Of a stretch of DNA of 64,000 bases, positions 18,147-49,822 are shown in pieces. Position 1 is the first letter of the stretch. Each line of letters opens with the position of its first letter. Position numbers and translations under genes: made by a program. The notes under the pieces are model-generated. The model saw only the letters and a list, made by a program, of their open reading frames with translations. It had not been told where the DNA came from and did no database searches. Source of the stretch: Gracilaria domingensis (Eukaryota; Rhodophyta; Florideophyceae; Gracilariales; Gracilariaceae); assembly GCA_022539475.1 (NCBI GenBank), contig VCMS01000050.1, positions 144,932 through 208,931 of the forward strand, read 5' to 3'.

Positions 18147-19877
18147 ATGAGCGGTACCAACTCCTCGGTTTCTATACCTCGCAAGCGCGATACACACTCA
18201 AGCGAACAGAGTATTCAAGTATCGGAACTCGATCACAGTACATCATCTGTCATTCCGATGAACCCGAATCAGTTTCCTCATCACCCGACGGGTCAGGCGA
18301 GCGCGTCGAACTACCCTCAGCCGGGTTCTGGGACGGCTCCACTGCCTCAGTCTCAACCGATGGTCTCGGTGAACGTTCCGTTATGGAATTCGGCGCAAGC
18401 GATGCCGCTGATGGCGAACCAAGCTGGTTGGATATCGAAGGAATCTCTCGCAGTACGCGATCCACTCCGTGATGGGTTTGCGTTCAGCCGTGCACCGTGG
18501 TTTCATCCGGTAGCTGTTAACGATGACACTCTCCTGGAGTCGTATGCCAAAAACGGCTTCCTACCGGGCGGTCTGCCGTTAGCGGTAGTGCAATCCCCAG
18601 AATGGAAAGTTCGTATAGCGATCGACCCGATGCTCCTCCGGTACGATACCCGCGAGGGTGAGAACCTGAACACCGCGCGCGCGGAACACGCGAAGTTGGC
18701 GTACAAGAGACTCAGTCGAGTGCACCTCGAGCACCTGGTTCCACCGTCATATGGGTTCGATACTCCGTTCTACCGTACTTTCGGTGAAGTCCGATATGGA
18801 GACAACTTGGCGACGTTCGACCATGCGCGGTACGCTGGCGATGGCCCGACCACATCGAGGTTGATGTTGTGCTGGAATCGGCCCATACTCCGAGCGGAGT
18901 TCCGTTATCTTCGCAAGAACGCTTCCCAGGGTGGGTTCGTCAACCGCATTCGGTTTGAGCGGAAAGCTCGTTCCCGTCATGGGTATCTGATTCCGTACCC
19001 GAATATCGAGACCGAGAGGTACAGACCGCAGGCCTTTGTTGGACGGTTCCCTCCTCTACCAGATTGGTGGCGTGATATGGAGGTACCCAAAGGGTGTTTT
19101 GCAGAACTGCCTCCGTGCTTGAGTTACATCGGCTCCCGATTGATCAACGATCCGCGTTCAGGATGGTGGGGTCTCGTAGCCGGCGAGTGGGCGGCACGCG
19201 TAGCAGCGTTTCTCCTCTGGGAGGCTTACGACAACTACCGTGTTTGGTATATTCCGCCGATGCTTCGCAGCATTATCCGCTCGCTGGATTTGCACACTCC
19301 CTTGGGGTCCGAAGAGAACGTGGATGAGATCCATTACATCTTGGATGTTATCGATGGAGTCGATTGGGAAACGGTGCCCCGTTCGCAACGCGGGAAAGGT
19401 CCTCGTCGTCACTACGAGCGCTCACCCGGTAGGAGACATCCCACAGCAGGAGATTTCGTGTATTACGACCCATGGGAGGGTACGATGACGACTAGCGCGT
19501 ATGCCGAGTGGGCAGCGAACCAGCCACGGTCGATTCCAGACAGTCACCCCGTTGGGTTCATGTTCAGTGACAACTGGGTCGCCCCAGTAGATCTGGATGA
19601 TCCGAACATGGATACTGGTGGAGAGGCGGCTGGAGCACTCGTCGAGATGGACCAGGAGTTTGTGAACGACCTACCGGCGGCGAATCAGGTGTTGCACGCC
19701 AGCAGCGGGGTATCCCAGGCTCCTGTGGGTTGGAATGTTCCGACTCAAGCGAGTGTTCCGGTGGTGGGTCCGGCCCCTGTAGCGGCTACCGTTCCTTCGG
19801 TCCTTCCGGCCCCGACAGCTCCCTTCGCTCCGGGAGATTCTCCGGCGAACATCGCGATGTTGCGCGCCAGTCTCTAG
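18147..19877 (+). CDS. E1 antisense ORF, conserved protein of unknown function
   Basis: 576 codons from the first ATG (18147; the frame opens at 18111 with TTG), opposite in direction to gag-pol and lying between pol and the 3' LTR. I recognise no domain. The N-terminal ~90 and C-terminal ~100 residues are Ser/Pro/Ala-rich and probably disordered. The central ~380 are Trp/Tyr/Arg-rich and aligned throughout with the antisense ORF of E2. Shared blocks include LPGGLP, YRTFGEV.YGD, PILRAEFR.LR, ELPPCL.YIGS, RVAAFLL.EAYD.YRVW and AGDFVY.DPW. There is no signal peptide or clear membrane anchor, so an envelope protein is unlikely. A weak TATA-like TATATGAG lies in the LTR near 18019, about 130 bp before the ATG. 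Its transcript would overlap the gag-pol RNA in antisense, so it could act as RNA, protein or both. Confidence 0.8.
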   Translation: MSGTNSSVSIPRKRDTHSSEQSIQVSELDHSTSSVIPMNPNQFPHHPTGQASASNYPQPGSGTAPLPQSQPMVSVNVPLWNSAQAMPLMANQAGWISKESLAVRDPLRDGFAFSRAPWFHPVAVNDDTLLESYAKNGFLPGGLPLAVVQSPEWKVRIAIDPMLLRYDTREGENLNTARAEHAKLAYKRLSRVHLEHLVPPSYGFDTPFYRTFGEVRYGDNLATFDHARYAGDGPTTSRLMLCWNRPILRAEFRYLRKNASQGGFVNRIRFERKARSRHGYLIPYPNIETERYRPQAFVGRFPPLPDWWRDMEVPKGCFAELPPCLSYIGSRLINDPRSGWWGLVAGEWAARVAAFLLWEAYDNYRVWYIPPMLRSIIRSLDLHTPLGSEENVDEIHYILDVIDGVDWETVPRSQRGKGPRRHYERSPGRRHPTAGDFVYYDPWEGTMTTSAYAEWAANQPRSIPDSHPVGFMFSDNWVAPVDLDDPNMDTGGEAAGALVEMDQEFVNDLPAANQVLHASSGVSQAPVGWNVPTQASVPVVGPAPVAATVPSVLPAPTAPFAPGDSPANIAMLRASL

Positions 19878-20369
19878 AACGCTGGAATTATCGTGCCCGA
19901 TCATCTCACCACTATGGCAGGGATACTGGCTTACGCCGTTCCGCACCCTTCGCAGGGTCCCTCCGGTAGCGGCGGTGCCGGTCCCTCATCGGGGGTGTAA
20001 GATGACCAGCAGGGCTGGAGGACTTGGTCCTTAGTATAAGATAGAAACAGTAAAACCATCTAGTGGTAACTTTCCCTTCCCCCTTTTGCCTGTTCTCCAC
20101 GAACTTGATCGATCTTCGATTACTTCTTCACTCACACTGTGTTCAAGTGTACTTCACTTCTTTGGTGCTTCTTCTACTCTAACCGTTTTAAATCGGTACA
20201 ACCGGCATTTCGGTATGGTCTTCTTTCTTTCTTCTCACTTCCTCTAGTTCAGTCTTCACCGCTTCATTGGTCTTCTTCCTTCATTCATCCCCACACAGGA
20301 GGGGTCAACTCTCCATTCTGAGTCTTCCGCATCGCGGTATAGTTGAAAGCTCCTCACCGGGAACGGTTC
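19878..20369. other. Convergent spacer between antisense ORF and pol end
   Basis: 492 bp with no supportable gene, where the sense pol transcript and the antisense ORF transcript converge. The left half is GC-rich, the right half pyrimidine-rich. The E2 counterpart carries a cluster of short hairpins; here I see no comparable set. Confidence 0.4.
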
Positions 20370-21304: not shown

Positions 21305-24300
21305 TTAACACCGGTCGGTAACATTGAGCTGATCTACCGCTTGCGGTTCTGCGTTCTCCGGAAAGCCCGGGTCTACAGATACTGTCTTCTCCGCTCTGCG
21401 GGTGGTGACCTCACTCAGTTGTGGCGTTCCCGACGGGGTTACGTTATCCACAGCGGTGTGTACCCCCTGGGTGGGTCGTGTCGTTTCCAGCGCATTGCTC
21501 AACGAATTTGACGGAGTATCACCACGAGGTACAGCGCCTCGGCGCACCACAACGCTATCGGTAGAGACCGCGAAATTGGTTGCGGTACCTTGCGACAGAG
21601 TGTGACCGTGCGACGCCGGTGTAACGGGTTCCGTACTTTCCTCCCCCTCTTTAGGCGGTGGCACGGGAGCCACGACGTCCGGTGGGGGGTCAACTATAGT
21701 TGAGTTTTCCTCTTCGTCTCCCGCAACGGGTTGTGCTACCCGCGTGGGTGATTCTGACTTCGGTAGATCCGATAAGCCGCGATCAGGGCGGAGAGTCGCA
21801 GGGCGCGAAGATACGACCTGTTCGTCCCCTGTAGCTTCACCCAGTTGGGTGTTAACGTGAACGTAGGGTGGTGGGGCCAGCGCGACACGGTCTAACGATA
21901 TCCGTTCGTGGAGATTATTGATATCCAATACTACGGTATCGTCCGTGACGGAAATAACCTTGTAGGGTCCTTCCGCGATAGGCGAGAGCTTGTGGCGGCG
22001 TTCCTTCTCCGGATTATAGTATTCTTTGCGGAGAAATACCATATCGTCTGGTTTGACCTTTGGTAATGGGGTCTCAACCTTCGCATCGAAGTTGCGCTTA
22101 TAAGCGGCCTGCGCCTTATCCATCGCTGTGCGAGCGACCGGTACCATTTTGGTTAACCAATCCTTCCAAGCGTTCCTGTATAACCCAACAGACGGGTACG
22201 TAGAAAGCGTTTCTTGAGCCTCGATTGCAACCGGTGGCGGTACTCTTGACAATACCAACTCAAAAGGTGCTAGCTTCGTTACCCGGTGGACTTGGGTGTT
22301 GTACGCATACGTAATAGCGTCCGTATACAAATCCCAATCCTTAGGATGATCTGCCACATAAGATCTTAATGCATTCAGCATGGTATGGTTAAATCGTTCT
22401 ACCTGACCATTTGTTTGGGGGTGGTAGGTGGTCGTAAATAGATTCTTGACACTCAAGATCCGACAGACGTCCTGGAAAAACTTCGACGTGAACTGTGAAC
22501 CGTTATCTGATAATAGATGAACCGGTGGACCGTACACAAAGACCCAGTGGGTGACAAAAGCTTGTGCAACCACCGTGGCCGTAATCCGTTTCAGCGGGAC
22601 TGTCCGTACCAACTTAGAGAACCGATCGGTGATAACCAGAAGGTATCGATTACCTCTTGCGGTTCTGATCAATTCACCTAAGATATCGATAGCGATAAAC
22701 TCCAAAGGAGACCGTGCTGGGAACAGCATTAACTTCTTCGAGTACTTACGAAGTTTCACGTTATTCTTAGCGCACTCGGTGCAAGAGCGTCGTACTGCGT
22801 AGCAGTCCAATGCCATTGACGGCCAGTAAAAATCCCTACGCAGGGTCAAGTATAGTTTTCGACCTCCTGGGTGGGCTCCTACCTTCACATAGTGTGTCAT
22901 GACCAACACACGGTTTTGCAGCGAGTATGGGACCACAATTTGGGTATGCGCTTCGACCAACCTAACCAGGTACCCCTGATCGTTAACCTGAAAAGGTATA
23001 CGATCTCCTCCATTGAGACGAGCGCGAATTCGCGTACAAAACTCATCCGTTTGCTGTTCTCGGATCATATCCTCGGGAGTGATGGGTACAAAAGATCCAG
23101 TCAAGGGATCCAACTTCTCAGAAGTGAGCAGGATGTCGTCACAGATGTCATCCGACAAAGATTCGACCCAACCTGCTTGTTCTTCCACCATAAAGCATGG
23201 TATGTCCAGATCGTCAACTGGTGCCGCTTCTGCATTTGTTCCCAAGCGGGAGAGTGCATCTGCCTGCAGATTCAACGTTCCTTTTTTGTACGTAACTGTG
23301 AAATCGAACTCCGATAACCTCAAGCGCCAACGCATCAAGCGTTCTGATGGTTCCGAGATTTCCATGAGCCATCGGAGAGATGAGTGGTCCGTATGTACCG
23401 TAAAATGGTTGCCCATAAGATATGGCCTCAGTGTAGTTAGAGCCCATACAACGGCTAAGCACTCTTTCTCCGAAACTGAGTAGTTACGTTCGTGTACGTT
23501 CAAGGATCGCGACCAGTATCCAATTGGATGTCTCACGCCGTCTTCCGTGACCTGAAACAGGGCGCAACCAACCTGGTGTGCACTGGCGTCAGTGTCTACT
23601 TCGAATGGAAGTCCTAGCTTAGGCAAAGCCAAGATTGGCGGTGACGTTACTGCGTCAATTAATGCCGAAAAGGCAGACGCTTCCGCGTCGCCTAGGGGTT
23701 CCAGTTGAACTGGTTGACCTTTTCTCAAAAGGTGGTTAAGGGGGGTCGCAATATCTGCGAAGTTCGGGACAAAACGCCGATATACATTACAAAGACCCAG
23801 AAAACTGCGGAGTTCCGTTCGTGTCGTAGGGTGTTTCGCTTCCTTCAGCGACTTCACGCGAACTGCGTCAACTGAGAGCTGTCCAGGTCGAATGATATGC
23901 CCTAGGTATTTGACAGAATCTGTGAAGAACTCGCACTTCTTGAGTTTCAGCGTAATGCCCGCGTCCCTGAGGACTCTCATGACGTCCCGGACGTGTGTTA
24001 AGTGGTCATCAAAGTTATCGGAGAACACGATGATATCGTCAAGATACACCAAGCAGGTCTTCCACTTGAATCGAGCCAAGAGGATATCGATAGCACGTTG
24101 AAACGTAGCCGGTGCGTTGGTTAATCCGAACGGCATTCGTTTAAACCGGTACAAACCTTGGTGGCACACAAAAGCAGTTTTGTCCTTATCCTTTTCGCGG
24201 ATCGGAACTTGCCAGTATCCCCAATTGGCATCCAAGGCGGTGAACACTGTAGCACTCCCAAGCGAGTCAATGTATTCGTCCATCCTGGGTATGGGATAAA

Positions 24301-25762
24301 CGTCTTTGACGGCGACCGAATTTAGACGACGGTAATCAATACAGAATCGCCATGATCCGTCCGCTTTTGGAACTAGCACCACGGGTGAGGCCCAAGCGGA
24401 TTGAGCCGCCTCTATGACGCCAGCGCGTAACATCTTCTCAACCTGAGATTGCTCTTCTTCCCTAGCTTTGGGACCAGCCCGGTATGGGTGTTGGGAAATG
24501 GGGCTAGTACCTGGAAGTAGGTCAATACGGTGTTCCGTGATTCCAATTGTCCCGAGGGATCCATCCCACATGGGTGTGAACTCCCTCAACATTTCTCTTA
24601 GCTTACCTCTATGAGATTCAGGTACATGATCAAAATTCAACTGTTCCAGATCCTTGACAGGGTCTGTATCTTCCGTTCCTGGTGGCAACGCTTTACCCTC
24701 GGTGGGTGCCAGCGATTCGGTAACTTCGCTCGCCGGGGTAACCGATGCGGTAAAAGCGGTTTCCGCTGATCCCTCCCCCTCCTTAGCATCGGTTATACCG
24801 AGAACATCCGCAACGGGTATCTTCGTCGGTAGGATAGCAGCAGGGTGTGGGAGAGTGGTACCAAGGATTTGGTTTTTAGCTAACCACTGTCGGGTTGTGC
24901 CAAAGTTGGCGACCAAAACTCTGAATGGTTTGTCGGGTTCCACCGAGATTACTCCATTCGCCAAAGCGAGTTGCTTCTGATCATACAATGATGGCAATGG
25001 TTGTACCACACGTAGACCAGACTGCTTAGTAGTTATGGTGACCCAAACTTGGGATTGCGCAGGGATTGCGATGGCATGAGCCACATGGAGCTTAGATGAT
25101 ACCGGGTCGACGGTTGGAACTTCCTGTGCAGCAGGGAGCGGGACGCGCTTGCGTGTAGCTCTCTTTAGCGGTTTCCTTACAATCGGTACTTCGGAACCAT
25201 CATCCATGGTAACAACTCGAGCTCGAGGTCGAATCGCTTCAACAAAACGATCACAAAAGTCACAACCGAGTATCACCGGTGCGGCAATGCTTTTGCAAAC
25301 CATGAAATCCACTTTAACTATACAGGTTCCTAATCGTACCATGAGAGGTATGTACCCAAGAGTACGCAACGGGTTATTGTTGGCATCCGCGATATCCAAA
25401 CCTGGACCATGACGAATTTCATCCCGTAGCGCGGGTGGCACCAACTCAAGGTGAATCAGGTTCGGTGCAGCTCCTGTATCCAACACAGACAACTGTCGAA
25501 CCATGAACTGGTTAGACAAGCCAAGAACGGCATAAACTTTGTAGTTTCTCTTGGCCATCACAAGAACTCTTTCCGGAATACGGAGATTACGGGACCGTAT
25601 CCACGGATGACGTAGAACCGAAAGGTGTTCTGAGCTCACGTCAGTTGTAGCCGCTATCCTTGAAAGGATTCTAACAGCTGGGGAGCGAAGCTGTGACGCC
25701 TCGGGCGCCTTTAACTTCGGCTCAGAAGGCGCCCCTCCCGTAGGGGAAACTCCCGAAGTCAG
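21305..25762 (-). CDS. pol: E1 pol: protease, RT, RNase H, integrase
   Basis: Replication polyprotein. The frame opens upstream in gag and has no ATG before MAKRNYKVY (25558), so it is made by -1 frameshifting at the gag stop or by starting there. Numbering from 25639: protease DTGA at 54-57; RT block FCIDYRRLN near 433-441 and YLDD at 533-536; RNase H DTDAS near 690; integrase zinc-binding H-H-C-C ending in CTEC; then the D,D35E core with AIDILGEL, SDNGSQF and GQVERFN; then the GPY-like PIAEGPYKV module. The frame ends at TAA 21305 after a Pro/Ser/Thr-rich tail, before reaching the chromodomain. All catalytic residues I can check are present, so the enzyme core may be active. Confidence 0.93.
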   Translation of the reverse strand: MTSGVSPTGGAPSEPKLKAPEASQLRSPAVRILSRIAATTDVSSEHLSVLRHPWIRSRNLRIPERVLVMAKRNYKVYAVLGLSNQFMVRQLSVLDTGAAPNLIHLELVPPALRDEIRHGPGLDIADANNNPLRTLGYIPLMVRLGTCIVKVDFMVCKSIAAPVILGCDFCDRFVEAIRPRARVVTMDDGSEVPIVRKPLKRATRKRVPLPAAQEVPTVDPVSSKLHVAHAIAIPAQSQVWVTITTKQSGLRVVQPLPSLYDQKQLALANGVISVEPDKPFRVLVANFGTTRQWLAKNQILGTTLPHPAAILPTKIPVADVLGITDAKEGEGSAETAFTASVTPASEVTESLAPTEGKALPPGTEDTDPVKDLEQLNFDHVPESHRGKLREMLREFTPMWDGSLGTIGITEHRIDLLPGTSPISQHPYRAGPKAREEEQSQVEKMLRAGVIEAAQSAWASPVVLVPKADGSWRFCIDYRRLNSVAVKDVYPIPRMDEYIDSLGSATVFTALDANWGYWQVPIREKDKDKTAFVCHQGLYRFKRMPFGLTNAPATFQRAIDILLARFKWKTCLVYLDDIIVFSDNFDDHLTHVRDVMRVLRDAGITLKLKKCEFFTDSVKYLGHIIRPGQLSVDAVRVKSLKEAKHPTTRTELRSFLGLCNVYRRFVPNFADIATPLNHLLRKGQPVQLEPLGDAEASAFSALIDAVTSPPILALPKLGLPFEVDTDASAHQVGCALFQVTEDGVRHPIGYWSRSLNVHERNYSVSEKECLAVVWALTTLRPYLMGNHFTVHTDHSSLRWLMEISEPSERLMRWRLRLSEFDFTVTYKKGTLNLQADALSRLGTNAEAAPVDDLDIPCFMVEEQAGWVESLSDDICDDILLTSEKLDPLTGSFVPITPEDMIREQQTDEFCTRIRARLNGGDRIPFQVNDQGYLVRLVEAHTQIVVPYSLQNRVLVMTHYVKVGAHPGGRKLYLTLRRDFYWPSMALDCYAVRRSCTECAKNNVKLRKYSKKLMLFPARSPLEFIAIDILGELIRTARGNRYLLVITDRFSKLVRTVPLKRITATVVAQAFVTHWVFVYGPPVHLLSDNGSQFTSKFFQDVCRILSVKNLFTTTYHPQTNGQVERFNHTMLNALRSYVADHPKDWDLYTDAITYAYNTQVHRVTKLAPFELVLSRVPPPVAIEAQETLSTYPSVGLYRNAWKDWLTKMVPVARTAMDKAQAAYKRNFDAKVETPLPKVKPDDMVFLRKEYYNPEKERRHKLSPIAEGPYKVISVTDDTVVLDINNLHERISLDRVALAPPPYVHVNTQLGEATGDEQVVSSRPATLRPDRGLSDLPKSESPTRVAQPVAGDEEENSTIVDPPPDVVAPVPPPKEGEESTEPVTPASHGHTLSQGTATNFAVSTDSVVVRRGAVPRGDTPSNSLSNALETTRPTQGVHTAVDNVTPSGTPQLSEVTTRRAEKTVSVDPGFPENAEPQAVDQLNVTDRC

Positions 25763-25770
25763 TTTTTCTG
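25759..25770 (-). promoter_or_regulatory. Putative -1 frameshift site at the E1 gag stop
   Basis: The minus strand reads CAG AAA AAC TGA at the end of gag, identical to E2 (42077-42088). Slipping back one base on AAA AAC enters the open pol frame. The heptamer GAAAAAC differs from canonical AAAAAAC in its first base. A 9-bp perfect stem (25726-25734 with 25703-25711) lies ~25 nt downstream, farther than usual for a stimulator. Confidence 0.55.
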
Positions 25771-27828
25771 AACGGGGCTCACCGAATTCGGTGCGTGAAC
25801 TCCGTTCGGGGGGCCTAACTGAACCCCATGCGTGGGTACTTCGCCTTGAACCTGGTTCGAAGGTGCCTGTGCCGGAACGGAGGGCTGAGCATAAACCGGA
25901 ACCGGTAATCCCAGTTCAGCTCTGGCCTTATCATATTCCTTTCGTGGAACACATTCCTTTTCCTCGGGCGTGAGGGCGTCGTAATACGCAATGATTTTCG
26001 GCCTGTGCAACGGCGGAAATACGCACTGCGTCGATACGTGACCTGGAAGGTAGCACTGGTAACATATGACCGAGGCCGGTTTGTCGCGAGGGCGATTGTC
26101 CACTCGACGTTGTGGTGCTGTGTCCTTCCACCCTGGACGGTTCAGACGCGACGAATTGTTAGCGTAAGGCAGCGGGGCTGCAGGCACCCGGACACCTTGG
26201 GCATACAATGCGGGGTCTTCTTCCGTGCTCGGAATCGAGGTTGACGGCAGGTCCGTATATCCGTAAGAATCGGGGTTACTTCCGATGAAGTGGACGTTAT
26301 CAGCATCACCGACAGCGGTTTCACGTCGCAAAACCGACATCGATGGTGACGAACTCTCCGCGAGTAGCGCTTTCGAGCGGCGCTGCCCCGGGTTGCGGGC
26401 TCGATACGTCTCTCCTTCCGCCTGGGCGTAATTAACCAACTCTAGGTACGTCATTCGGCGTTTTTCCTCGCGTCGGCGAGCGACCAACGACCGAATGGTG
26501 GGGTCCAAACCATCAACAAACATGGTACACCGCTCCTGTGCGGAATACACATTACCACATCGGTGAAACGCTTTGTTCAACCGCGTTGAATAAACCGTTT
26601 CAGATTCTCCACTCTTCTGTCTAGTGTCGCGAACAGCAAGAGTAGCACTGTAAATCGCGTTGGAAGTCGCGTACGACCTGAGAAGGTAGTTCACGGCTTC
26701 CGGCCAACAGGTGACTCCTCCTTCCGAGGCTCTCGAGGTTCCTCGAACTGAGTTGTACTGATCTTCCGCAGTCCCTGTTAGGAAGTACGGCAGTGCCACA
26801 TATGCCTGTGCTTCACTCATACCGAGTATATCGGCCTCCTGGACGAACCTGGCAAGGAAATCCAAGATAAGGATAGGATCTGTCCCCGAGAACTTCCTTG
26901 TTTCAAGGGTAACATTCAACCTTCGAATGTAGTCCTTCACCTTACCGGTTCCTCGCGAGGAGCGATTCGAAGTAACATCTTCCAACCGATAATAGCGGTA
27001 CGACAACAGCTTTGTGTAGAGCGGGTCCGTCGGCTTTAACTCTTTGAGTCCCAAGTGGCGCCGTCCTTTCACGCGTGATCTCATCACTGCCTGAGTAGAC
27101 TGCATCGCTTTCGACCGTGTCGAACGTGACCTATGACGGTTGTCATCACTATCAGATGAATCTGACGAACTGTCTTCAGTCATGCCGCTCGAGTCAGAGC
27201 GCGATGAATCCGAATCATAGTGAACTCGTTTTGGGTGTCGACGTTTCTGCTTCACCGAACGATGGTCTTCATCCGCAGATGGATTTCCTTGAGGAACCTG
27301 TGCGTCCACAGCTTCATCCATACGGATTGTATCCTCCAGCGTTTCCAAGCGCGAACGAATTCGACCGATATCGGTGCGCATTTCCTCGACAAATGCCCGG
27401 TACTCCGTGACGAAGACGTCTGGGGTACCCAGATTTTCCATAATGGAATTCACGTCCTTTCTCAGAAGACGTAAGTCTCCTGAGACATCCCTCACCTGGG
27501 TATTATCAACCTGCGTCCTCAACGAGGTAACATCCTGTAGGAGTTCCACGTGAGCAGCGTGATTAATATCCAAGCGGGATTCCAACCTAGCCAACTCGGC
27601 TACGGTAGCAGCGTTAGGGTTAACCATGGGTGGTGTCTCAACGACGGGTTGAGCAGAACCCACGTTTTCCTTAGGTGCTTCCGTAACTGAGCGCGTTCTC
27701 CGGGGGCGGGGTACGACCTCAAGAGGTTGCGCCTCATCTGGGATAGACCGGGACGTCGGTGCAACGGGTGGAACCGCAGCTGACGACCGCGCTGAACCAG
27801 CTCGAGAACCTCGAGGCGGTTGCGGCAT
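25759..27828 (-). CDS. gag: E1 Gag
   Basis: 689 codons from the first ATG (27828; upstream in-frame codons open with TTG). Forms the capsid and nucleocapsid of the cytoplasmic particle. Seen: Pro/Arg/Ser-rich N-terminus; a coiled-coil stretch beginning around NPNATVAELARLESRL; an acidic/serine run; a Lys/Arg stretch ending in RRHLGLKELKPTDPLY; the Gag helical core (ILDFLARFVQEAD, EAQAYVALPYFLTGTAEDQ); and one zinc knuckle C-x2-C-x4-H-x4-C (CYQCYLPGHVSTQC) about 100 residues before the end. The frame is intact, unlike that of E2, whose Gag is otherwise closely similar. Confidence 0.9.
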   Translation of the reverse strand: MPQPPRGSRAGSARSSAAVPPVAPTSRSIPDEAQPLEVVPRPRRTRSVTEAPKENVGSAQPVVETPPMVNPNAATVAELARLESRLDINHAAHVELLQDVTSLRTQVDNTQVRDVSGDLRLLRKDVNSIMENLGTPDVFVTEYRAFVEEMRTDIGRIRSRLETLEDTIRMDEAVDAQVPQGNPSADEDHRSVKQKRRHPKRVHYDSDSSRSDSSGMTEDSSSDSSDSDDNRHRSRSTRSKAMQSTQAVMRSRVKGRRHLGLKELKPTDPLYTKLLSYRYYRLEDVTSNRSSRGTGKVKDYIRRLNVTLETRKFSGTDPILILDFLARFVQEADILGMSEAQAYVALPYFLTGTAEDQYNSVRGTSRASEGGVTCWPEAVNYLLRSYATSNAIYSATLAVRDTRQKSGESETVYSTRLNKAFHRCGNVYSAQERCTMFVDGLDPTIRSLVARRREEKRRMTYLELVNYAQAEGETYRARNPGQRRSKALLAESSSPSMSVLRRETAVGDADNVHFIGSNPDSYGYTDLPSTSIPSTEEDPALYAQGVRVPAAPLPYANNSSRLNRPGWKDTAPQRRVDNRPRDKPASVICYQCYLPGHVSTQCVFPPLHRPKIIAYYDALTPEEKECVPRKEYDKARAELGLPVPVYAQPSVPAQAPSNQVQGEVPTHGVQLGPPNGVHAPNSVSPVQKN

Positions 27829-28051
27829 ACTGAAAACCAGTAAGCAATCTGATCCAGATGATCCAGTTAAACTCGTACACGAGTCTCCAAAGAACAAGAA
27901 AACTCAATAAACCTTCTCGGTAAACCACCACGTCAGCGGTTCACGTTCAAAAGTTGTCAACCTCCAAAACTCTAAAGAGTCCTCTGATCGTTGTCAGAAA
28001 ACGGTGATCCGTCAACAATCAAGTCAATTCCACGACAGTGACCTAAAACGG

Positions 28052-28069
28052 TTCTAAGTCGGGAGACCA
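28052..28069 (-). other. E1 primer-binding site
   Basis: The minus strand reads TGGTCTCCCGACTTAGAA, complementary to a tRNA ending TTCTAAGTCGGGAGACCA, three bases (AAG) inside the 5' LTR. The match is exactly 18 nt. The untranslated leader 27829-28051 shows no ORF. Confidence 0.88.
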
Positions 28070-28072
28070 CTT

Positions 28073-39052: not shown

Positions 39053-39057
39053 TGAAC

Positions 39058-39914: not shown

Positions 39915-39917
39915 AAC

Positions 39918-39935
39918 TGGTCTCCCGACCTAGAA
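39918..39935 (+). other. E2 primer-binding site
   Basis: TGGTCTCCCGACCTAGAA, three bases (AAC) after the LTR. It differs from the E1 site by one base and points to the same tRNA or an isodecoder. The leader to the gag ATG (40079) is 143 bp. Confidence 0.88.
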
Positions 39936-40078: not shown

Positions 40079-42088
40079 ATGTCGTCCCGTCGCAGGAGTA
40101 GCGCGCCACGTGCCGCTTCTGTGCCAGGTTCGTCCGGCTTGCCGGCAAGTTTGCCTCCGTTGCCGAAGGACGCACTGGAGGTCCCAGGCAATGGCGACCC
40201 GAAACCGGCTTCCCGGGGCCGCCGTTCCGATAACGGGACCCCACCCACTCGTGGGTCAACTGAAACCGCACCTGCGGCTGATGCCGCCGCAGCAGTTGAC
40301 GTTATGTCGTCGCGGTCCGACGAGTATACCCTCCGCGAATTAGAGGCTCAGGTTCGCATCCTGCAGAACTCCCAAGTGGGCCTCATCCGGGATATTACGA
40401 AACTCCGGCAACGGCTCGATGAAGCCGGTGTCCAGGACGTTTCGAGCGACGTCCGTGTTTTACGGTCTGATGTCAACCAGATTATGGAACACCGATAGGT
40501 GTCGGCTGGTCTGCACGAGCAGGCTGCCGCACGCCTGGACCGCCTGGCTACCCGTCTGGAGACGGTCGAGCAAATCATCGTATCTGATGCTGTTGCGCCG
40601 GGAGCCCCGGTTTCTGAGGGTTCTCAGCACTCGCGCCGTTCCCGGGACCGTCCGGCAAAGAAGAAGGTCAAGGTTGAGTCTGACTCGTCTTCTTCATCCT
40701 CCTCTGATGAGGAGGGCCCCAAAAAGGGGTCGTCTACCGACTCTTCGGACAGCGCGGAAGAGCGCTCTCGCTATCGTGCATCCCGTTCGCGGGCTACTGA
40801 AGCCACTTCTGGTGTTGCACGAGGCCGTACGAAAGGACGGAGACACCTCGGATTGAAGGAGTTGAAGCCGACAAACTTACTGTATCGGAAGCTACTATCC
40901 TACCGATATTATCGGCTTGATGACACGACGCCACAGAGGACCCCACGTGGGACTGGCAAAGTGCGAAATCATCTCCGACAAATGGAGCTCACGCTAAAGC
41001 CCCACAAGTTCTCTGGGGAAGATCCCATTCTTGTCTTGGATTTTCTTAGCCGCTTCGTAGCGGAAGCCGATGTACTTCGGATGAGTGAGGCACAGGCCTA
41101 CATCGCGCTGCCGTACTTTTTGACGGGTGTAGCTGAAGATCAATTCAATTCGGTTCGTGGGTCGTCTCGCGCCTCCGAAGGAGGAGTTACGTGCTGGCCG
41201 GAAGCGGTACAATAACTCCTGCGCTCTTACGCGACAGGCAATGCGATACAAGGTGCTATACTCGCGCTACGAGACACGAAGCAAGGAGCCGAAGAGTCGG
41301 AAACCGTTTATTCGACCCGCCTCAATAAGGCTTTCCACAGATGTGGCAACGTGTTCTCCGCAGCCGAGCGGTGTACGATGTTTGTTGATGGACTGGACCG
41401 ATCAATTCGGACGTTGGTAGCCCATTATCGGGAGCACAAACGGCGGATTACTTATCTGGAACTCGTTCAATTTGCCCAAGCGGAGGGAGATGCAGCTCGA
41501 GCACGCACTGGTATCAAGACGCGCACGCGCCGACTCCTTCATGTAGAAGGCCGAGACTCCTCACTGCCTCACTCGCGAGGTTCTGTTCAAGGGGGTTATG
41601 ATAACCTGCACCTGTTACAGGACGATGGTTCAATGCCGAGTTCGGAATTGCCGTCGACGACGGAGCAGTCTACAGTGGACGCAGACCCCGCTCTGTACGA
41701 CGGACGTCAAGTCCCGGCATTGCCCGTGCCGCACTCTGGCGGATATCGAAGCCAACGCCCTGGATGGAGGGACCCGTACCCTCCTCGACAGGAGCGCCGG
41801 CCGCCCAACGCGGATCTTCTTCGTCACCTTATTTGTCATACCTGTTACAGGCCAGGGCACATCGCTCCGAATTGTTTAATGCCCATACGGGATATGGCAA
41901 AGATAGTGCCCCAGTATGAGTCGTTGACGCCGGCCGAGCGGGAACGTGTTCCCGACAAATCGTACCTTCGTGCGAAGGCGGAGACTCAGCCTGGAAACCA
42001 GGAAACGGTGCCATCGAATGGTGGAACTGTAGCCGCACCTGCGGAATCACAACCTCCGCAGATTGGCGGCGACGCTCAGAAAAACTGA
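40079..42088 (+). pseudogene. gag: E2 gag interrupted by two stop codons
   Basis: One continuous frame from the ATG at 40079 to TGA at 42086-42088, broken only by TAG at 40496-40498 and TAA at 41213-41215. Content parallels E1 Gag: basic N-terminus, coiled coil, acidic serine run, RRHLGLKELKPTN, Gag core (ILVLDFLSRFVAEAD, EAQAYIALPYFLTGVAEDQ), and a zinc knuckle CHTCYRPGHIAPNC. The TAA replaces the residue that is N-terminal to LLRSYA in E1. Without readthrough this copy cannot make a full Gag. Confidence 0.88.
42077..42088 (+). promoter_or_regulatory. Putative -1 frameshift site at the E2 gag stop
   Basis: CAGAAAAACTGA, identical to E1 although surrounding DNA has diverged. A -1 slip enters the pol frame, which runs open until a TAG at 42241-42243 (a TGG Trp codon in E1). 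A possible stem GCCTCCA / TGGAGAGGC follows about 10 nt downstream. Confidence 0.55.
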
Positions 42089-42285: not shown

Positions 42286-45200
42286 ATGGCGAAACGTAAC
42301 TACAAAGTTTACGCCGACCTGGGTGTTTCCGACCAGTACATGGTTCGGCAGTTGTCCGTGCTCGATACAGGAGCTGGGCCAAATTTCTTGGTTGAATCGA
42401 TGATTCCGCCGCACTTGCGGTCTCGCGTTCGTGCGGCGCCGCAGATTGATATAGCGGATGCGAACAATCGGCCACTCTCGACTGTGGGAGTAATAGACCT
42501 GCTCTTCAGGCTTGGCCGCTACGTGGCGAAGCTCGATTTCTTGGTTTGCAAGCAACTCGCTGCGCCGGTTATCCTCGGCTGCGACTTCTGTGACCGCTTC
42601 GTCGATGCAATTCGACCGCGGAAGCGAACCATCGAAATGGAAGATGGGACTACTGTACCGATCGTTCGGCGTCCCCTACGCCGGGCTCTGAAGAAGCAAG
42701 TCCCTTTGCCTGCGGCACAGAAGCCTACAGCCGATGAACGGAAGTCTACAAAGCTCCGAGTAGCTCGGCCCATTTCCATCCGGCCTGAATCACAGGTCTG
42801 GGTTACTGTGACGTCCCCACAATGTGGCTTACAAACGGTACAACCGTTGCCTGCGTTACAGGAGAAGCATCAGCTTGCCCTCGCTAATGGGATTGTTTTC
42901 GTCGAACCCGAGCAGCCCTTTCAGGTGCTGGTTGCGAACTTCAGCCGTTTTCCTCAACGATTGGTTAGGAGCCAAGTTATTGGTTCGTTGCTTCCGCACC
43001 CTGCGGCTATAGTGCCTACTCAGGTTTCTATTGCCGAGGTTCTCGGAATCCTCGAAGCTGAGGAGGGGGAGGCGGAACGGAACAATTCCGAAACGAATAC
43101 TGGACCGAACAGTTCGTCGGAAGATGCTACGCCGACTTCGTCGGATGCAAATAACCGCACCCTGTCGAAGGAGGCAATGCCGACCTCGTCGGACAGTAAT
43201 GATACGGACCTGAGTGCTGCTGACACGAAGGATAAGGCAGTACAGGAACTGGAGTCTCTGGATCTTGAACATGTCCCAGAGACTCACCGCGATAAATTGC
43301 GGCACATGCTTGAGGAGTTCACGCCCATGTGGGATGGCACACTGGGTAAGATTGGTATTACCGAACATCGGATTGATTTGCTACCGAATACTCGGCCCAT
43401 TTCGCAACACCCTTACAGGGCGGGACCGACAGCTCGGCAGGAGGAGAAAGCTCAAGTTGAGAAGATGCTCCGCGCTGGAGTTATCGAGCCGGCCCAGTCA
43501 CCTTGGGCATCGCCGGTGGTGCTCGCGCCCAAAGCTGATGGGTGTTGGCGATTTTGCATCGATTACCGCAAGCTAAACGCGGCTACAGTCAAGGATGTAT
43601 ATCCTATCCCACGAATGGATGAATGCATCGATTCGTTGGGCGACGCGAAAGTGTTCACAACACTAGATGCGAATTGGGGCTATTGGCAAGTTCCCGTGAG
43701 GGCTGAGGATCGTGACAAGACAGCCTTCGTTTGTCATGAAGGATTGTACCGATTTAATCGGATGCCCTTTGGGTTAACGAACGCGCCAGCCACCTTTCAA
43801 CGAGCCGTGGATATTTTGCTAGCCCGCTTTAAGTGGAAGACTTGCCTGGTATACCTGGATGACATCATTGTCTACTCCAGCAACCTGGACCAGCACTTGA
43901 CCCACGTACGGGATGTGATGCGAGTCCTACGCGATGCAGGCATTACGCTCAAGCTCAAGAAGTGTGAGTTTTTTACCGAAACCGTCAGGTATCTCGGCCA
44001 TGTTATCCGTCCAGGACGGCTTTCGATTGACGAAGTACGCGTGAAATCCCTCAAAGAGGCTAAGCATCCGAGGACGCAGACGGAACTCCGATCCTTTCTC
44101 GGCTTGTGCAATGTGTATCGCCGCTTCATTCCGAACTTCGCGGATATCGCCGCACCTCTGAACGAGCTTCTTCGCAAAGGACAGCCAGTCGATCTGGAAG
44201 AATTCGACGACCGCAAGGTCGCGGCTTTCTCGTCGCTCGTGAACGCGGTGACATCGCCACCTGTTTTATCTCTGCCTAGGGCTGGTTTGCCATATGCAGT
44301 AGATACGGATGCGAGCGACTACCAAGTCGGCTGTGCCCTATTCCAGACCACCAATGATGGCGAGCGATTGCCAATTGGGTATTGGTCAAGGAGCCTCAAC
44401 GTTCACGAGAGGAATTACTCGGTATCCGAGAAGGAGTGCTTGGCGGTTGTCTGGGCGTTACAGACACTGCGGCCCTATCTTATGGGGACCCGCTTCATTG
44501 TTCATACCGATCATTCGGCATTACGCTGGCTACTCTCTATAGCAGAGCCATCTGGCCGCTTGATGCGGTGGAGACTTCGCTTGTCGGAATTCGACTTCGA
44601 AATCCGTTACAAGAAAGGACTCCTGAACACTCAGGCTGATGCACTGTCCCGCTTGGAAACAGCGGCTGAAGCTGCGCCAGTCGATGATCTGGAGATACCG
44701 TGCTTCCTGGTGGAAGACGGCTCGAGCGATGCCGATGAAGAATCGGAAGGATGGGACATCTACGATGCTGTTTTAGCCGTGTCAGACACGCAACCCGAAC
44801 CGGGCTCTTTCGTACCGATCAAGCCGGAGGAACTCATCCGGGAGCAGCACACCGACCGTTTTTGTACGGAGATTCGTAGTCGTCTAAACGGTGGAGCACA
44901 GTTGCCTTTCGTCGAGAACGACCAAGGATTTCTAATCCGAACTGTCGGAAACAGGCCACAGATTGTGGTTCCGCACTCACTTCAGTCACGAGTACTGCAT
45001 TTGTCGCACTATGCGAAGTTGTCAGCCCACCCTGGTGGCAGGAAGTTGTACTACACCTTACGGAAGGACTTTTACTGGCCAGCAATGGCTTTCGACGCGT
45101 ATGCCACTGTTCGTGGATGTTCTGACTGCGCGAAGAACCGCGTCAAGCTCCATAAGTATTCCAAGAAGTTGGCAATATTCCCTGCTAGGGCTCCACTGGA

Positions 45201-47622
45201 GTTTGTGGCGATCGATCTACTCGGCGAGTTTATTCGCACCCGCCGGGGAAACCGGTTTTTGCTTGTTATCACCGACCGCTTTTCTAAGCTGGTACGGACT
45301 GTGCCTTTAAAGAAGGTTACTGCTAGTGCGGTCGCCCAAGCTTTCGTTACTCACTGGGTTTTTGTCTACGGACCGCCGATTGACTTACTATCGGATAATG
45401 GACCGCAGTTCACGGCTAAGTTCTTTCAGGACGTATGCCGCATCTTGCGGATCCAAAACTGGTTTACGACAACATATCATCCCCAGAGTAATGGGCAGGT
45501 TGAGCGTTTTAACCGCACGATGCTCAACGCATTGCGGACGTTTGTTGCCGAGCATCCGTCGGAATGGGATCAGTACACCGATGCGGTGACTTATGTCTAC
45601 AATACGCAGGTTCATCGCACGACTCAGATCTCGCCGTTCGAGCTTGTGCTATCACGCGTCCCACCTTCGGTGGCTATCGAGCCACAGCCAACTTTGGATA
45701 AGTTCCCGTCGCCCCGTCTACACAGGGACGCCTGGAAGGGCTGGCTTAAGAACATTATCCCCACAGTTGGGCAGAATATCGCTAAGGCCCAGGCCGCTTA
45801 CAAGCGGAATTTCGACGCTAGAGTGCGTAAGAATGCCCCTCAGATCAGGGAAGGTAGCTTTGCCTTCGTACGGAAGGAGTACTACAACCCTGAAAAGGAG
45901 AAGCGCCACAAGCTTTCTCCTATCGCGGACGGCCCGTTCCCGGTTATTGCTGTCACCGACACAACGGCTGTCCTTGATATCAAGGGAGAGCACGAGCGTT
46001 TGTCGCTAGATCGCGTAACGCCTGCGCCAAAGCCTGTTTCGCAGGATTCGCTACCGTCATCGTCGGCCCCTACCGCACCCACTGTGGAAACAGCCGTCGG
46101 AACGGAAACAGGCGCCGCGGTGGGTACTCGCACTCAACCGTCTGTGTTGCCGCATCCGGATCGCGGACTTGCTCATTTGCCTGCTAAGCCGGAATCTGAC
46201 CGGTCGGCCTCCAATGCCGCACATGTGCACACGCGGATAGGGGCCCCTATGGGGATACTCGCCGCCACCCCCGACACTCCCACTGAGGAGGGGGAGGAAG
46301 CAGGTCGTTCTTTTTCGTTGTCGCCGTCGTCGACGGAGTCGCCTTCGCAGGCCTCTGTATCGCACCCAAGTCGTGATGAAGGCACGTCAACGCGCGACAC
46401 ACAGCCGGAGAGCCGGAAAGAAGAGAACGACGCGCAGCTACCTTGGAAGCCTCAAGAAGAGGAAGATCACTCTCGCTCACCACCGCCGTCGCGAACGGAG
46501 TTACGCTTGCAGGCCCAAGAACGGGAACACAGTACCGATGTGGTACGTGATTTGCAGCCGGAAAGCCGGAGAGATCGCACAGTTTCGCGGAGGCCTTCTG
46601 GGAAGGACGCCATCTCGGTGACGATTGCAGCCGGAAGACCGGAAGAGAAGGACGCACCGTTACCACGGAAGGCTGAGGTGGGAGGCACCACTATGGTGAA
46701 TCGCAAAGCCGGAAGTACGGAGAAAGAAGAGTTAGTTCGAAAAAACCGTGCTGTTACGGCAGACCCGACTTCGGGAGATCTTCGTGCAGCACCGAGTGCC
46801 AAAGCCGTCAAAAAGACGGAACCAACCACCAGTGTGGCGAACAGTCAAGCCACAGCAAGTGGGCAGCACTCAAGTGCTGACGACGCGTGCACGTCGCACC
46901 AAGTGTCGAGCCCCGTGGGAGATCCGCCTCCAACCGAGGATTACAGTGCGCAAGCCGGGCACGTGCCAGCCACAGACCTGGCGCCGTCTAAAAACGGTTC
47001 AAAAAATTCCGAATTTGAATCGGCTCTTGACGGCCATGCAAAGGCGCAGGTGTCGCAAACCGCAGCGCGCGGCGAACCGCCGCCACGGCACGTGCCAGAA
47101 CACCACTCGCTGGCTCACCGCTCTGCGGACCGTTCACCGTCGCAACGGGAGATTGTGCCGGAACGCCGGAAGCTCGCTATTCGAGAAGACCGAAGCACGG
47201 TCACAGCCCAGCAGCATGGGGAGAAGAACCAGGAATCTGGAAGCATGATGGTCAGGAAAGTACCATGGTCACGAAGACCAAAGCCTGGCGTACAGGATGT
47301 ACTGCCGTCAGGACGGAAGCCGATCACGAACGACGATGCCCACGACGGGAGAACCGACGACTACGCCTCGAAAGAGGATTTTTCAAGCAAGCCGCACACA
47401 GAGCGGAGTGTTCTCGATGAGGAATATGTCATTGACCGTCTGGTAAGTCACGGCTACGCCCCTGACGGGGAACCACTGTATCGAGTCCGTTGGTACGGCT
47501 ACGCCTCTTCAGAGGATACGCACGAGCCCATTGAGCACTTGCCTCGCTCGAAGGTCTTGCAGTACCACCGTCGCACACGGACACCGATACCGGCTACGCT
47601 GGACAAGGCCCAAGTGGGTTGA
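42286..47622 (+). CDS. pol: E2 pol: protease, RT, RNase H, integrase, linker, chromodomain
   Basis: 1778 codons, complete. Protease DTGA at 27-30; RT YLDD at 523-526; RNase H DTDAS near 675; integrase zinc module from about 908 (H..H..CSDC); catalytic core with AIDLLGEF, SDNGPQF (Asp 1037) and GQVERFN; GPY-like PIADGPFPV. Then ~480 residues of Glu/Arg/Ser/Pro-rich linker with loosely repeated PESRR/EEKDAPLPRK phrases, and a chromodomain at ~1712-1765 (YVIDRLVSH..., YRVRWYGYASSEDT.EP) predicted to bind modified chromatin. The first ATG matches MAKRNYKVY of E1. In the upstream extension a TAG (42241) would stop a Gag-Pol frameshift product, so this copy needs internal initiation or is defective. 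Confidence 0.94.
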   Translation: MAKRNYKVYADLGVSDQYMVRQLSVLDTGAGPNFLVESMIPPHLRSRVRAAPQIDIADANNRPLSTVGVIDLLFRLGRYVAKLDFLVCKQLAAPVILGCDFCDRFVDAIRPRKRTIEMEDGTTVPIVRRPLRRALKKQVPLPAAQKPTADERKSTKLRVARPISIRPESQVWVTVTSPQCGLQTVQPLPALQEKHQLALANGIVFVEPEQPFQVLVANFSRFPQRLVRSQVIGSLLPHPAAIVPTQVSIAEVLGILEAEEGEAERNNSETNTGPNSSSEDATPTSSDANNRTLSKEAMPTSSDSNDTDLSAADTKDKAVQELESLDLEHVPETHRDKLRHMLEEFTPMWDGTLGKIGITEHRIDLLPNTRPISQHPYRAGPTARQEEKAQVEKMLRAGVIEPAQSPWASPVVLAPKADGCWRFCIDYRKLNAATVKDVYPIPRMDECIDSLGDAKVFTTLDANWGYWQVPVRAEDRDKTAFVCHEGLYRFNRMPFGLTNAPATFQRAVDILLARFKWKTCLVYLDDIIVYSSNLDQHLTHVRDVMRVLRDAGITLKLKKCEFFTETVRYLGHVIRPGRLSIDEVRVKSLKEAKHPRTQTELRSFLGLCNVYRRFIPNFADIAAPLNELLRKGQPVDLEEFDDRKVAAFSSLVNAVTSPPVLSLPRAGLPYAVDTDASDYQVGCALFQTTNDGERLPIGYWSRSLNVHERNYSVSEKECLAVVWALQTLRPYLMGTRFIVHTDHSALRWLLSIAEPSGRLMRWRLRLSEFDFEIRYKKGLLNTQADALSRLETAAEAAPVDDLEIPCFLVEDGSSDADEESEGWDIYDAVLAVSDTQPEPGSFVPIKPEELIREQHTDRFCTEIRSRLNGGAQLPFVENDQGFLIRTVGNRPQIVVPHSLQSRVLHLSHYAKLSAHPGGRKLYYTLRKDFYWPAMAFDAYATVRGCSDCAKNRVKLHKYSKKLAIFPARAPLEFVAIDLLGEFIRTRRGNRFLLVITDRFSKLVRTVPLKKVTASAVAQAFVTHWVFVYGPPIDLLSDNGPQFTAKFFQDVCRILRIQNWFTTTYHPQSNGQVERFNRTMLNALRTFVAEHPSEWDQYTDAVTYVYNTQVHRTTQISPFELVLSRVPPSVAIEPQPTLDKFPSPRLHRDAWKGWLKNIIPTVGQNIAKAQAAYKRNFDARVRKNAPQIREGSFAFVRKEYYNPEKEKRHKLSPIADGPFPVIAVTDTTAVLDIKGEHERLSLDRVTPAPKPVSQDSLPSSSAPTAPTVETAVGTETGAAVGTRTQPSVLPHPDRGLAHLPAKPESDRSASNAAHVHTRIGAPMGILAATPDTPTEEGEEAGRSFSLSPSSTESPSQASVSHPSRDEGTSTRDTQPESRKEENDAQLPWKPQEEEDHSRSPPPSRTELRLQAQEREHSTDVVRDLQPESRRDRTVSRRPSGKDAISVTIAAGRPEEKDAPLPRKAEVGGTTMVNRKAGSTEKEELVRKNRAVTADPTSGDLRAAPSAKAVKKTEPTTSVANSQATASGQHSSADDACTSHQVSSPVGDPPPTEDYSAQAGHVPATDLAPSKNGSKNSEFESALDGHAKAQVSQTAARGEPPPRHVPEHHSLAHRSADRSPSQREIVPERRKLAIREDRSTVTAQQHGEKNQESGSMMVRKVPWSRRPKPGVQDVLPSGRKPITNDDAHDGRTDDYASKEDFSSKPHTERSVLDEEYVIDRLVSHGYAPDGEPLYRVRWYGYASSEDTHEPIEHLPRSKVLQYHRRTRTPIPATLDKAQVG

Positions 47623-47659
47623 CCACCCACGTCTCTATTGAGCACAGCCTTCTCAGACG

Positions 47660-47820: not shown

Positions 47821-48130
47821 CCACTTACAGTGGAGAAGAAGATAAAGAAGAAAGAAGCCTAAGAAGAAGGAGAAGAAGCCAGGACACTGGAAGGAAGACT
47901 AAGAAGTTTTATCGCTACAGACGCTTGTGCGGAAAAGTTACCCCTCTCCTGTGGGCCATTCGCAACAGCCTCAAACGAGGTATTGCCCACTGAGAAGGGG
48001 GAGAGCAAGACGAAGAGTTTGAGCCAAGCCAGCACGGCTGGAGAAGTTTTCCTCTAACTATTGAGTCGCCCCTCATCATCGGGGTCTATCGCGGACTACC
48101 GTAGCCCGTCGGGGATCGCGAGCCGGGGAA

Positions 48131-49822
48131 TTACGCGCCGGACGGTCCAGCACCTGGGGTGCCCCCACTACCGGGAGCCCCGGAGAAGCGCTGTGCCGCT
48201 ATTGTTTGCAACTCCGACTCGTCGGTCACCGTATCGGGAACGGCCACTCCCACGCCTCGAAGGAAGTCGCGAATGACCGCCGCTCGCGGAGTGAGAGAAG
48301 AACTGCCGCCCACGGCGGATGCTACATCCTGAGCCCACGGGCCGGTCGGAGCGGGAGCCGCTACAGCGGGTGGGTCAACAATCACGACTTCGTCGTCACC
48401 TCCCGTAGCTTCGGGCTCCGAGGCAACCCCCACTGGGCTCCCCTCATCCATGGGACTTCCTCCCTCTGCAGGGTCATCACCGTCATCGTCGACGTATACG
48501 AACCCACGCGGGTGCTCTTCCGGGATATATCGCTCCTCTCGGCGCCGACCAGCCGCCTCAGCGGGACCAATTACCTCCCAAATCCATGGGTCAAAGTATA
48601 CGAAGTCGCCGGCGTTGACGTTCCGTCCGGGAGAACGGTCCGACTGCCGACGGACCCCGTCGGAAACCTGACTAGCAGGCACCTCATTCCAGTCAATCTG
48701 GTCAATGACGTCCACCAACGCGGTGGCTTCGCGCGCATTACGGACCGAGCCGAGCACTTCGGAGAGATCTAACGCTCGGATCGCTTGCCGGATGAGTTCC
48801 GGGATGAACCAAACTCGGTACGAATCATATGCCTCGATGAGGAGGAAAGCCGCAACGCGGACGGTCCATTCTGTTGCCAGGATGCTCCACAGGCCGCGAG
48901 GCGGATCGTTCATGAAGTACGAGCCTATGTAAGTTAGGCAGGGCGGTAGCTCTACGTGACACCCTCGTGGGACTTCGACCGCAGGCCAGAATGACGGCAG
49001 CGGCAGGTATCGCCCAGTATGGGAGTGACGCGCAATGCGTTCCACCTCCGTACACTGGTACGGCACCAGTACCCCGAAGCGGGAACGCCATTTCCTCTCG
49101 AATCGGAGGCCTTCATGAAATTGAGACCGTCCAGGACGGCGAAGGAACCGGAATTCGGCGCGAAGGATCGGCCGCGCCCACAGGATCAACTCCTGCTGCG
49201 GTTGGACGGTGTCCGAATATCGGTCAATTTCGTCCAACGCGTTGGCTAGATGGTCGCCGTAGCCGACCTCGCCGAAAGTTCGGTAACGTGCCACATCGTA
49301 CTGGTACTGTGCCGGCACCGGATGTTCGTTCGGAGCTCGGAAGTGTCGCGCGTACCCAATGCGGGCCATCTCATTGCGAGCGAATTGTCTCGTCTCGTTT
49401 CGACCTACAAACAGGCAGCTCGGTATAACCGCAACGCGGGCGATCCAGTCCCACGAACGGGTAACGTCAGCAGGAAGCCCACCAGGGAGTTGACCGTCGA
49501 CAGCGTACGAGTCGACGAGCTCTGTATCCCGAACGGCTTCGGCGTCAAACCAGGGAGCCTGGGCAAAAAGGAAACTGTGCCGGTGCGGATCCCGGATGCG
49601 TAACGCGCCTGCGGTAGGCCATCCACCCAGCGTAGCTGGCATCTCTGCGTTGAACCAATCCCATACGGGCGCGGGACCAGCCTGAGCTGGAGCGTGATCT
49701 TGTCCGGAAGAACCCGGCTGGGAGGCAGCCGCCGACTGCGGGAGAGGTACCGACCGGAACGGCGGGTTGGACACTTGCATGCGTGCCGTCGAGGACGGAG
49801 GGCCGTTCGGTGCGTTGGACAT
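48131..49822 (-). CDS. E2 antisense ORF, conserved protein of unknown function
   Basis: 564 codons from the ATG at 49822. The frame has an earlier ATG at 49930, but a minus-strand TATA box lies inside that extension, so the later start is preferred. No domain recognised. Layout matches the E1 ORF: Ser/Pro/Ala-rich N-terminus, Trp/Tyr/Arg-rich core of ~380 residues, acidic then Gly/Pro/Ala-rich tail. Shared blocks include LPGGLP, YRTFGEVGYGD, PILRAEFRFLR, ELPPCLTYIGS, RVAAFLLIEAYD and NAGDFVYFDPW. It does not overlap pol, so conservation is not a by-product of pol coding. Both copies are uninterrupted even though E2 gag is broken. Antisense genes between pol and the 3' LTR are known from some plant gypsy elements (for example Grande), but I do not recognise this family. 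Confidence 0.82.
   Translation of the reverse strand: MSNAPNGPPSSTARMQVSNPPFRSVPLPQSAAASQPGSSGQDHAPAQAGPAPVWDWFNAEMPATLGGWPTAGALRIRDPHRHSFLFAQAPWFDAEAVRDTELVDSYAVDGQLPGGLPADVTRSWDWIARVAVIPSCLFVGRNETRQFARNEMARIGYARHFRAPNEHPVPAQYQYDVARYRTFGEVGYGDHLANALDEIDRYSDTVQPQQELILWARPILRAEFRFLRRPGRSQFHEGLRFERKWRSRFGVLVPYQCTEVERIARHSHTGRYLPLPSFWPAVEVPRGCHVELPPCLTYIGSYFMNDPPRGLWSILATEWTVRVAAFLLIEAYDSYRVWFIPELIRQAIRALDLSEVLGSVRNAREATALVDVIDQIDWNEVPASQVSDGVRRQSDRSPGRNVNAGDFVYFDPWIWEVIGPAEAAGRRREERYIPEEHPRGFVYVDDDGDDPAEGGSPMDEGSPVGVASEPEATGGDDEVVIVDPPAVAAPAPTGPWAQDVASAVGGSSSLTPRAAVIRDFLRGVGVAVPDTVTDESELQTIAAQRFSGAPGSGGTPGAGPSGA

Follow-up and report, generated by a model that had tools for sequence, protein, structure and literature searches.

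An antisense gene conserved among red-algal chromovirus-type Ty3/gypsy elements, possibly encoding a nuclear regulator of its own element

What could a retrotransposon gain from a long gene carried on the strand opposite to gag-pol? The question is raised by 64,000 nucleotides (nt) of the red alga Gracilaria domingensis (GenBank assembly GCA_022539475.1, contig VCMS01000050.1, positions 144,932 to 208,931), a stretch that we call the window. It contains two Ty3/gypsy elements, E1 on the minus strand and E2 on the plus strand, each with 99.2% identity between its long terminal repeats (LTRs). In both, an antisense open reading frame (ORF) lies between pol and the 3' LTR, pointing away from this LTR and convergent with pol. 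An earlier note, made from the sequence letters, had described one long open antisense ORF in each element, and both are indeed open and free of any overlap with pol, from which they are separated by gaps of ~1.4 kb (E1) and ~0.5 kb (E2). The two proteins are related, as the note held, but the extent of ~380 residues that it gave was too short: they are 42% identical over 533 amino acids (aa). Across five element families, 5-28 stops interrupt the other reading frames of this stretch. We propose a clade of red-algal chromovirus-type Ty3/gypsy elements with an accessory gene that lies between pol and the 3' LTR on the strand opposite gag-pol, and whose product would be a nuclear regulator helping its own element; taken as a whole, we regard this reading as evenly poised between right and wrong.

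Searches of the genome (77.9 Mb, 680 contigs) found the antisense gene in at least five element families: E1, E2 and three others, F3, F4 and F5, with frames of ~651, ~721 and ~703 codons, respectively. The latter three have one pol-bearing locus each (L039, L040 and L060), at which pol lies on the opposite strand, faced by the antisense ORF, and an edge of polypurine tract (PPT) and LTR precedes that ORF. Copies number at least 76 for the E1 type and at least 77 for the E2 type; the copy lists comprise the best-scoring copies, and are ranked matches rather than a random sample. Among the best 32 E1-type pol copies, 23 have a listed antisense ORF alongside (22 at ~1.4-1.5 kb, one at 0.3 kb), and seven of seven fetched from the other nine carry it as well, several in broken or mosaic form; the ORF thus stands beside pol in 30 of 30 copies examined. 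Absence of the ORF from other copies of the lineage and a recent conversion tract were among the outcomes that the earlier note considered fatal to its proposal. Instead, the ORF occurs throughout the lineage, and the divergence between E1 and E2, with saturated synonymous sites, is far too great for recent conversion to explain their likeness. Sequence comparison shows that this is one protein family, distributed over five element families, beside pol in every copy examined and selected in the copies that replicate. Two E1-type loci stand apart: the antisense ORF of L062 looks mosaic (part ~97% and part 61-66% identical to that of E1), and that of L064 is diverged, with 72% identity to E1's overall. 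These patterns suggest recombination between subfamilies.

Protein searches found 16 relatives, including two hypothetical proteins of Gracilariopsis chorda and one partial protein of Agarophyton chilense. The relatives assigned to an organism are these three, all from red algae, and database labels read only 'hypothetical' or 'unnamed'. No relative was confirmed by profile scans, either of viral contigs or of those from bacteria and archaea. One protein of G. chorda aligns with that of E2 at 72% identity, versus 42% for that of E1, which suggests that the E1 and E2 lineages split before these algae did. The restriction of the organism-assigned relatives to red algae would also suit a captured or domesticated host gene, with a conservation that reflects a function for the host. 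This we consider very improbable, given that the ORF accompanies pol in all E1-type copies examined, that the antisense-gene tree agrees with the pol tree and that no single-copy host relative is found among the matches listed, which are best-scoring copies. Both trees read ((E1,F5),E2,(F3,F4)), with bootstraps (of 200) of 190 for E1-F5 and 200 for F3-F4 in pol, and of 200 and 159, respectively, in the antisense gene. Between families, pol is 72-82% identical (881 columns) and the antisense protein 40-50% (475 columns). The agreement is modest evidence that the antisense gene has been inherited together with pol.

Selection on the protein itself is best judged within families. Between E1 and E2 the ratio of nonsynonymous to synonymous divergence (dN/dS, or omega) is nominally 0.17, a value that is unusable as a number because synonymous sites are saturated between families. 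Unsaturated subfamily pairs gave omega 0.27 for F3a-F3b (dS 0.78) and 0.21 for F4a-F4c (dS 0.22). Against the window copies, omega is 0.18-0.25 for L048 and L054-L059, and six low-ranked E2 copies of the 77 span this range at dS 0.05-0.15; the better-diverged unsaturated pairs overall lie at 0.18-0.27. One opposite-strand frame shares the third-position register, and so tends to low omega too, but holds 12-28 stops in the five families. We also sorted variants by sharing (alignments of 19 rows for E1 and 36 for E2) into those private to one copy, which are mostly changes that followed insertion, those common to two copies and those in three or more. Over these classes the ratio of nonsynonymous to synonymous polymorphism (pN/pS) falls from 0.50 through 0.29 to 0.25 in E1, and from 0.63 through 0.18 to 0.08 in E2. 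Stops follow the same classes: six private, one common to two copies and none in three or more in E1, and five, none and none in E2. Purifying selection on shared variants is supported, clearly in E2 and moderately in E1, and the selected function that the earlier note had suspected gains substance from this fall in pN/pS and from the omega of the unsaturated pairs. This distribution of variants is what free decay after insertion would produce, together with retention of the protein in the lineages that spread. The note had also taken the open ORF of E2 beside a gag with two in-frame stops as a sign of selection. The stops are there, but the argument is weak because the ORFs of many copies are broken too.

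These results also bear on the idea that the antisense RNA itself is functional, as double-stranded RNA or by interference with sense transcription, the ORF being incidental. Convergent transcripts would overlap over the 3' part of the genomic RNA, and non-coding antisense RNAs have been described for other retroelements (PMC7264820; this and the other papers are cited here for particular passages). However, purifying selection acts on the amino-acid sequence, the conserved protein has a confident predicted fold, and the insertions and deletions of the low-ranked subfamily copies L051 and L054-L057 have lengths divisible by three. Because selection acts on amino acids, an RNA-only role is largely refuted, and we give it hardly any weight.

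How might such a gene be expressed? A TATA-like octamer lies between the PPT and the gene. Of eight sequences given, the six with a recognisable PPT could be scored (five families), and in all six the TATA-like octamer that scores best on the strand of the antisense gene, within 200 nt, is offset 51-54 nt past the PPT. The mean score of this offset window is 8.5, reached by none of 20000 mononucleotide shuffles, with a scoring matrix made by ourselves for this analysis and a motif that had been seen before being tested; over 1500 nt, the highest score of an unrelated window common to the sequences is -2.9. The spacer between PPT and box is poorly conserved between families (only 9-19 of 40 positions identical), and the box has thus been kept while its surroundings vary. 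This suggests a core promoter that belongs to the antisense gene itself and faces away from the 3' LTR. Alternatively, an antisense promoter may lie inside the LTR.

Use of the box would also revise the start of the gene. The E1 ATG at 18147 would then precede the first transcribed nucleotide, making a Met 37 codons downstream (~18258) the likelier start. The transcript would begin past the first in-frame ATG in F4 and F5 as well as in E1, the likely start in these families being a downstream Met before an Asn/Pro-rich stretch. The E2 start at 49822 is compatible with transcription from the box. The other end of the gene also needs correction: the frame runs 41 codons beyond E1's stop in the four sibling copies read (L002-L005), and measures 660 codons in 53 of the 76 E1-type copies scored compared with 619 in E1's own copy. 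The E1 ORF is therefore cut by a premature stop and 19877 is not the gene end of the family.

By prediction, the protein begins with a disordered region in which a PLPQ motif recurs and ends with a helical hairpin; between the two are a helical core of ~375 residues (66-441 in E2), an SPGR loop that is conserved and a disordered linker. The core model has a predicted local distance difference test score (pLDDT) of 88.4 and a predicted template modelling score (pTM) of 0.88. A structural search with this predicted core gave no match among solved or viral folds, and Pfam gave no credible family for the antisense protein. Transmembrane-like segments were absent from the E1 and E2 proteins, in which the highest 19-residue hydropathy is 1.4-1.5. 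The protein could be a particle component or Gag partner rather than a gene regulator, joining virus-like particles or assisting their assembly from the position usually given to env. The gene sits at that position, the disordered tails with their PLPQ motif and the helical hairpin resemble binding parts, and the protein evolves faster than pol (see the identities above). Yet there is no transmembrane-like segment, and one would expect the sense RNA, and not a separate antisense promoter, to supply a protein of the particle. We therefore consider this role unlikely, if still worth keeping in mind.

Four things point instead to a regulatory protein: where the gene lies, the promoter that it probably has to itself, the absence of a membrane segment, and what has been published on proteins encoded at the same place. 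The most likely function, which we favour tentatively and at somewhat below even chance, is that of a nuclear regulator that helps its own element, either countering silencing or aiding the expression or export of genomic RNA. With its own promoter, the accessory protein would be made independently of gag-pol and would then act in the nucleus in one of these ways. Since sense and antisense transcripts would converge, the element may switch between two phases, an antisense phase that yields the accessory protein and a sense phase that yields gag-pol and replication. A bolder version, which we think improbable, is that the core adopts a hitherto unsolved fold, that the gene encodes a factor dedicated to countering silencing, evolved by red-algal chromoviruses on the antisense strand independently of the plant protein TRP28, and that its TATA promoter lets dormant copies make this factor before or instead of gag-pol. 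If true, a two-phase life cycle would be built into one retrotransposon. Independent expression could also allow resident copies to act in trans on new ones, as a self-restriction factor that limits copy number; the earlier note had raised copy control, next to Gag interaction and defence against silencing, as a possible role. Such a limit would not be strict, because the two families have at least 76 and at least 77 copies and the LTR pairs of E1 and E2 are nearly identical; moreover, selection on spreading lineages favours a gene that helps its carrier. A self-restriction role is in our view quite improbable.

A number of observations weigh against the nuclear regulator and the selected, separately transcribed gene behind it. 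The proposed mechanism rests on analogy, with no domain or fold match. The E1 box scores a weak 2.9, and E1 has a TATA-like octamer scoring 7.9 on the opposite strand at another offset. TATA-like octamers on the same strand also occur inside the LTR, ~275-317 nt upstream (7.2 in E1, 6.8 in E2 and 7.8 in F5), and the sense strand scores 4.3, 5.4 and 7.1 at the box site in E2, F4 and F5, respectively. In none of the five families was an AATAAA found within 700-800 nt past the ORF; a single ATTAAA is present in F5. In-frame stops interrupt the antisense ORF in 22 of 76 E1-type and 21 of 77 E2-type copies scored, and with so many broken ORFs, that of E1 in the window included, the protein is not needed from each copy. 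Ten of 12 E1 pairs have omega 0.45-2.0 (the most diverged pair 0.25, one other 0.22), and close pairs gave 0.45-0.72 in three F3 comparisons and 0.33 in one of F4. The high values in E1 and F3 fit decay after insertion, and not selection on every copy. The drop in pN/pS is moderate in E1, where variants common to three or more copies comprise 17 synonymous and 13 nonsynonymous changes, and one stop is common to two E1 copies. Finally, the pol and antisense-gene trees have five tips only, and would agree by chance once in 15 before support is weighed.

Features of E1 and E2, in window positions (LTR, long terminal repeat; PPT, polypurine tract; PBS, primer-binding site; RT, reverse transcriptase)
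Feature	Position	Strand	Remarks
E1 3' LTR	17070..18068	-	BLAST repeat match; outer end includes ~20 nt of PBS-like sequence
E1 PPT	18068..18078	-	adjoins 3' LTR; read by eye
E1 TATA-like element	18131..18138	+	54 nt past PPT; score 2.9, weakest of six
E1 antisense ORF	18147..19877	+	576 aa; 3' end truncated by a stop that is premature compared with sibling copies; Met ~18258 is the likely true start
E1 pol ORF	21305..25639	-	RT, RNase H, integrase (Pfam)
E1 gag ORF	25759..27897	-	712 aa
E1 5' LTR	28049..29047	-	BLAST repeat match
E2 5' LTR	39058..39919	+	BLAST repeat match
E2 gag region	40079..42088	+	two in-frame stops
E2 pol ORF	42286..47622	+	RT, RNase H, integrase, C-terminal chromodomain (Pfam)
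E2 antisense ORF	48131..49822	-	563 aa; frame open from upstream ATG at 49930
E2 TATA-like box TATATAAG	49916..49923	-	51 nt past PPT
E2 PPT	49973..49983	+	adjoins 3' LTR; read by eye
E2 3' LTR	49984..50846	+	BLAST repeat match

The surroundings of the two elements hold further mobile sequences. The insertion site of E1 lies in the RT of a second Ty3/gypsy-like element (16880-17030 and 29032-31204), with RT-like sequence recognised by eye on both sides, and Pfam places RT, RNase H and integrase at 29032-31204. No opposite-strand ORF of at least 150 aa was found between 31204 and 38000. Just outside the 3' LTR of E1 (17029-17069) lie an inverted copy of the LTR end (33 nt, 97%) and a stretch that resembles, by eye, the 3' half of the primer tRNA, possibly an unfinished reverse-transcription end that was integrated between LTR and target. 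Adjacent ORFs at 5-8842 carry an N6/N4 DNA methylase domain, a SET domain and a Plavaka transposase, and could possibly form one large DNA transposon with chromatin-modifying cargo. Finally, 60501-62111 encodes a Helitron helicase-like N-terminal domain and DUF6570.

As to the class of the carriers, a chromodomain follows the integrase, as in chromoviruses: the C-terminus of E2 pol is a chromodomain by Pfam (PF00385, E 1e-6), and a chromodomain-like segment with RWYGY was recognised by reading only in E1, F3 and F4, that of E1 lying beyond the pol stop. In the E1 family this segment occupies a separate open stretch (20370-20725 in the window), of 117 codons in seven of eight loci (L001-L008) and 73 in the other; in seven of the eight it is in pol's own frame with stops between, be it through an intron, a lost linker or read-through.

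CERV of the Caenorhabditis elegans element Cer1 is a novel accessory protein of an LTR retrotransposon, required for genomic RNA export; it is encoded by a spliced Cer1 mRNA and, in the passages cited here, is not described as the product of an antisense gene (PMC10309623). An env-like gene would have sense orientation and a transmembrane segment, and was set aside for the antisense orientation and low hydropathy found here. HBZ of human T-cell leukaemia virus type 1 (HTLV-1) is a regulatory protein encoded on the antisense strand of a retrovirus (PMC11963269), and the antisense promoter of HTLV lies inside the 3' LTR (PMC7264820). Compared by description only, the candidate promoter in the algal elements differs in being a TATA-like box at a fixed spacing between PPT and gene.

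Closer parallels are the antisense ORFs between pol and the 3' LTR that are described in plant and fungal elements (PMC11963269; PMC7264820), the role of which, in plant elements, is called unknown in the same papers. Among them, TRP28 of Retand elements (Transposase_28, PF04195) is found in nearly all recently active clusters of its lineage; its function is given as unknown, and a regulatory role has been suggested for TRP28 proteins (PMC11963269). The algal gene has the same orientation relative to gag-pol and the same place between pol and the 3' LTR. Judged by its domain, however, it is not a TRP28 protein, as PF04195 matched none of the 16 members at E up to 1; a genome search with PF04195 likewise gave no match, though the control in that search was silent too. 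The carriers also differ, since TRP28 apparently occurs only in flowering plants and in a non-chromovirus lineage (PMC11963269), whereas E2 has a chromodomain and the algal elements are chromovirus-type. Gene23 of the maize element Grande has an antisense transcript from a promoter upstream of the gene, and a nuclear product (PMC7264820). To judge from the descriptions, the algal gene shares position and orientation with gene23 and other plant genes of the kind termed aORF-3R. The position that defines these genes is found in E1 and E2, with both LTRs, and in F3-F5, and their presence in most copies is matched by the E1 family. The fungal gene brtn, in Boty elements of Botrytis cinerea, is likewise an additional antisense gene in a gypsy element (PMC7264820; PMC8365987), a likeness that again holds at the level of description. 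The arrangement is thus already known from the plant Retand and Grande and the fungal Boty elements, and what is new is the red-algal protein, which matched no known family or fold; among the open-licence papers listed in literature searches, judged by title and the start of the abstract, none describes this gene from red algae. With it, red algae join flowering plants and fungi as hosts of such antisense genes, here in chromovirus-type elements, and their many copies, measured selection, promoter-like box at a fixed spacing and compact core make it possible to study what such reversed genes do for the elements that carry them.

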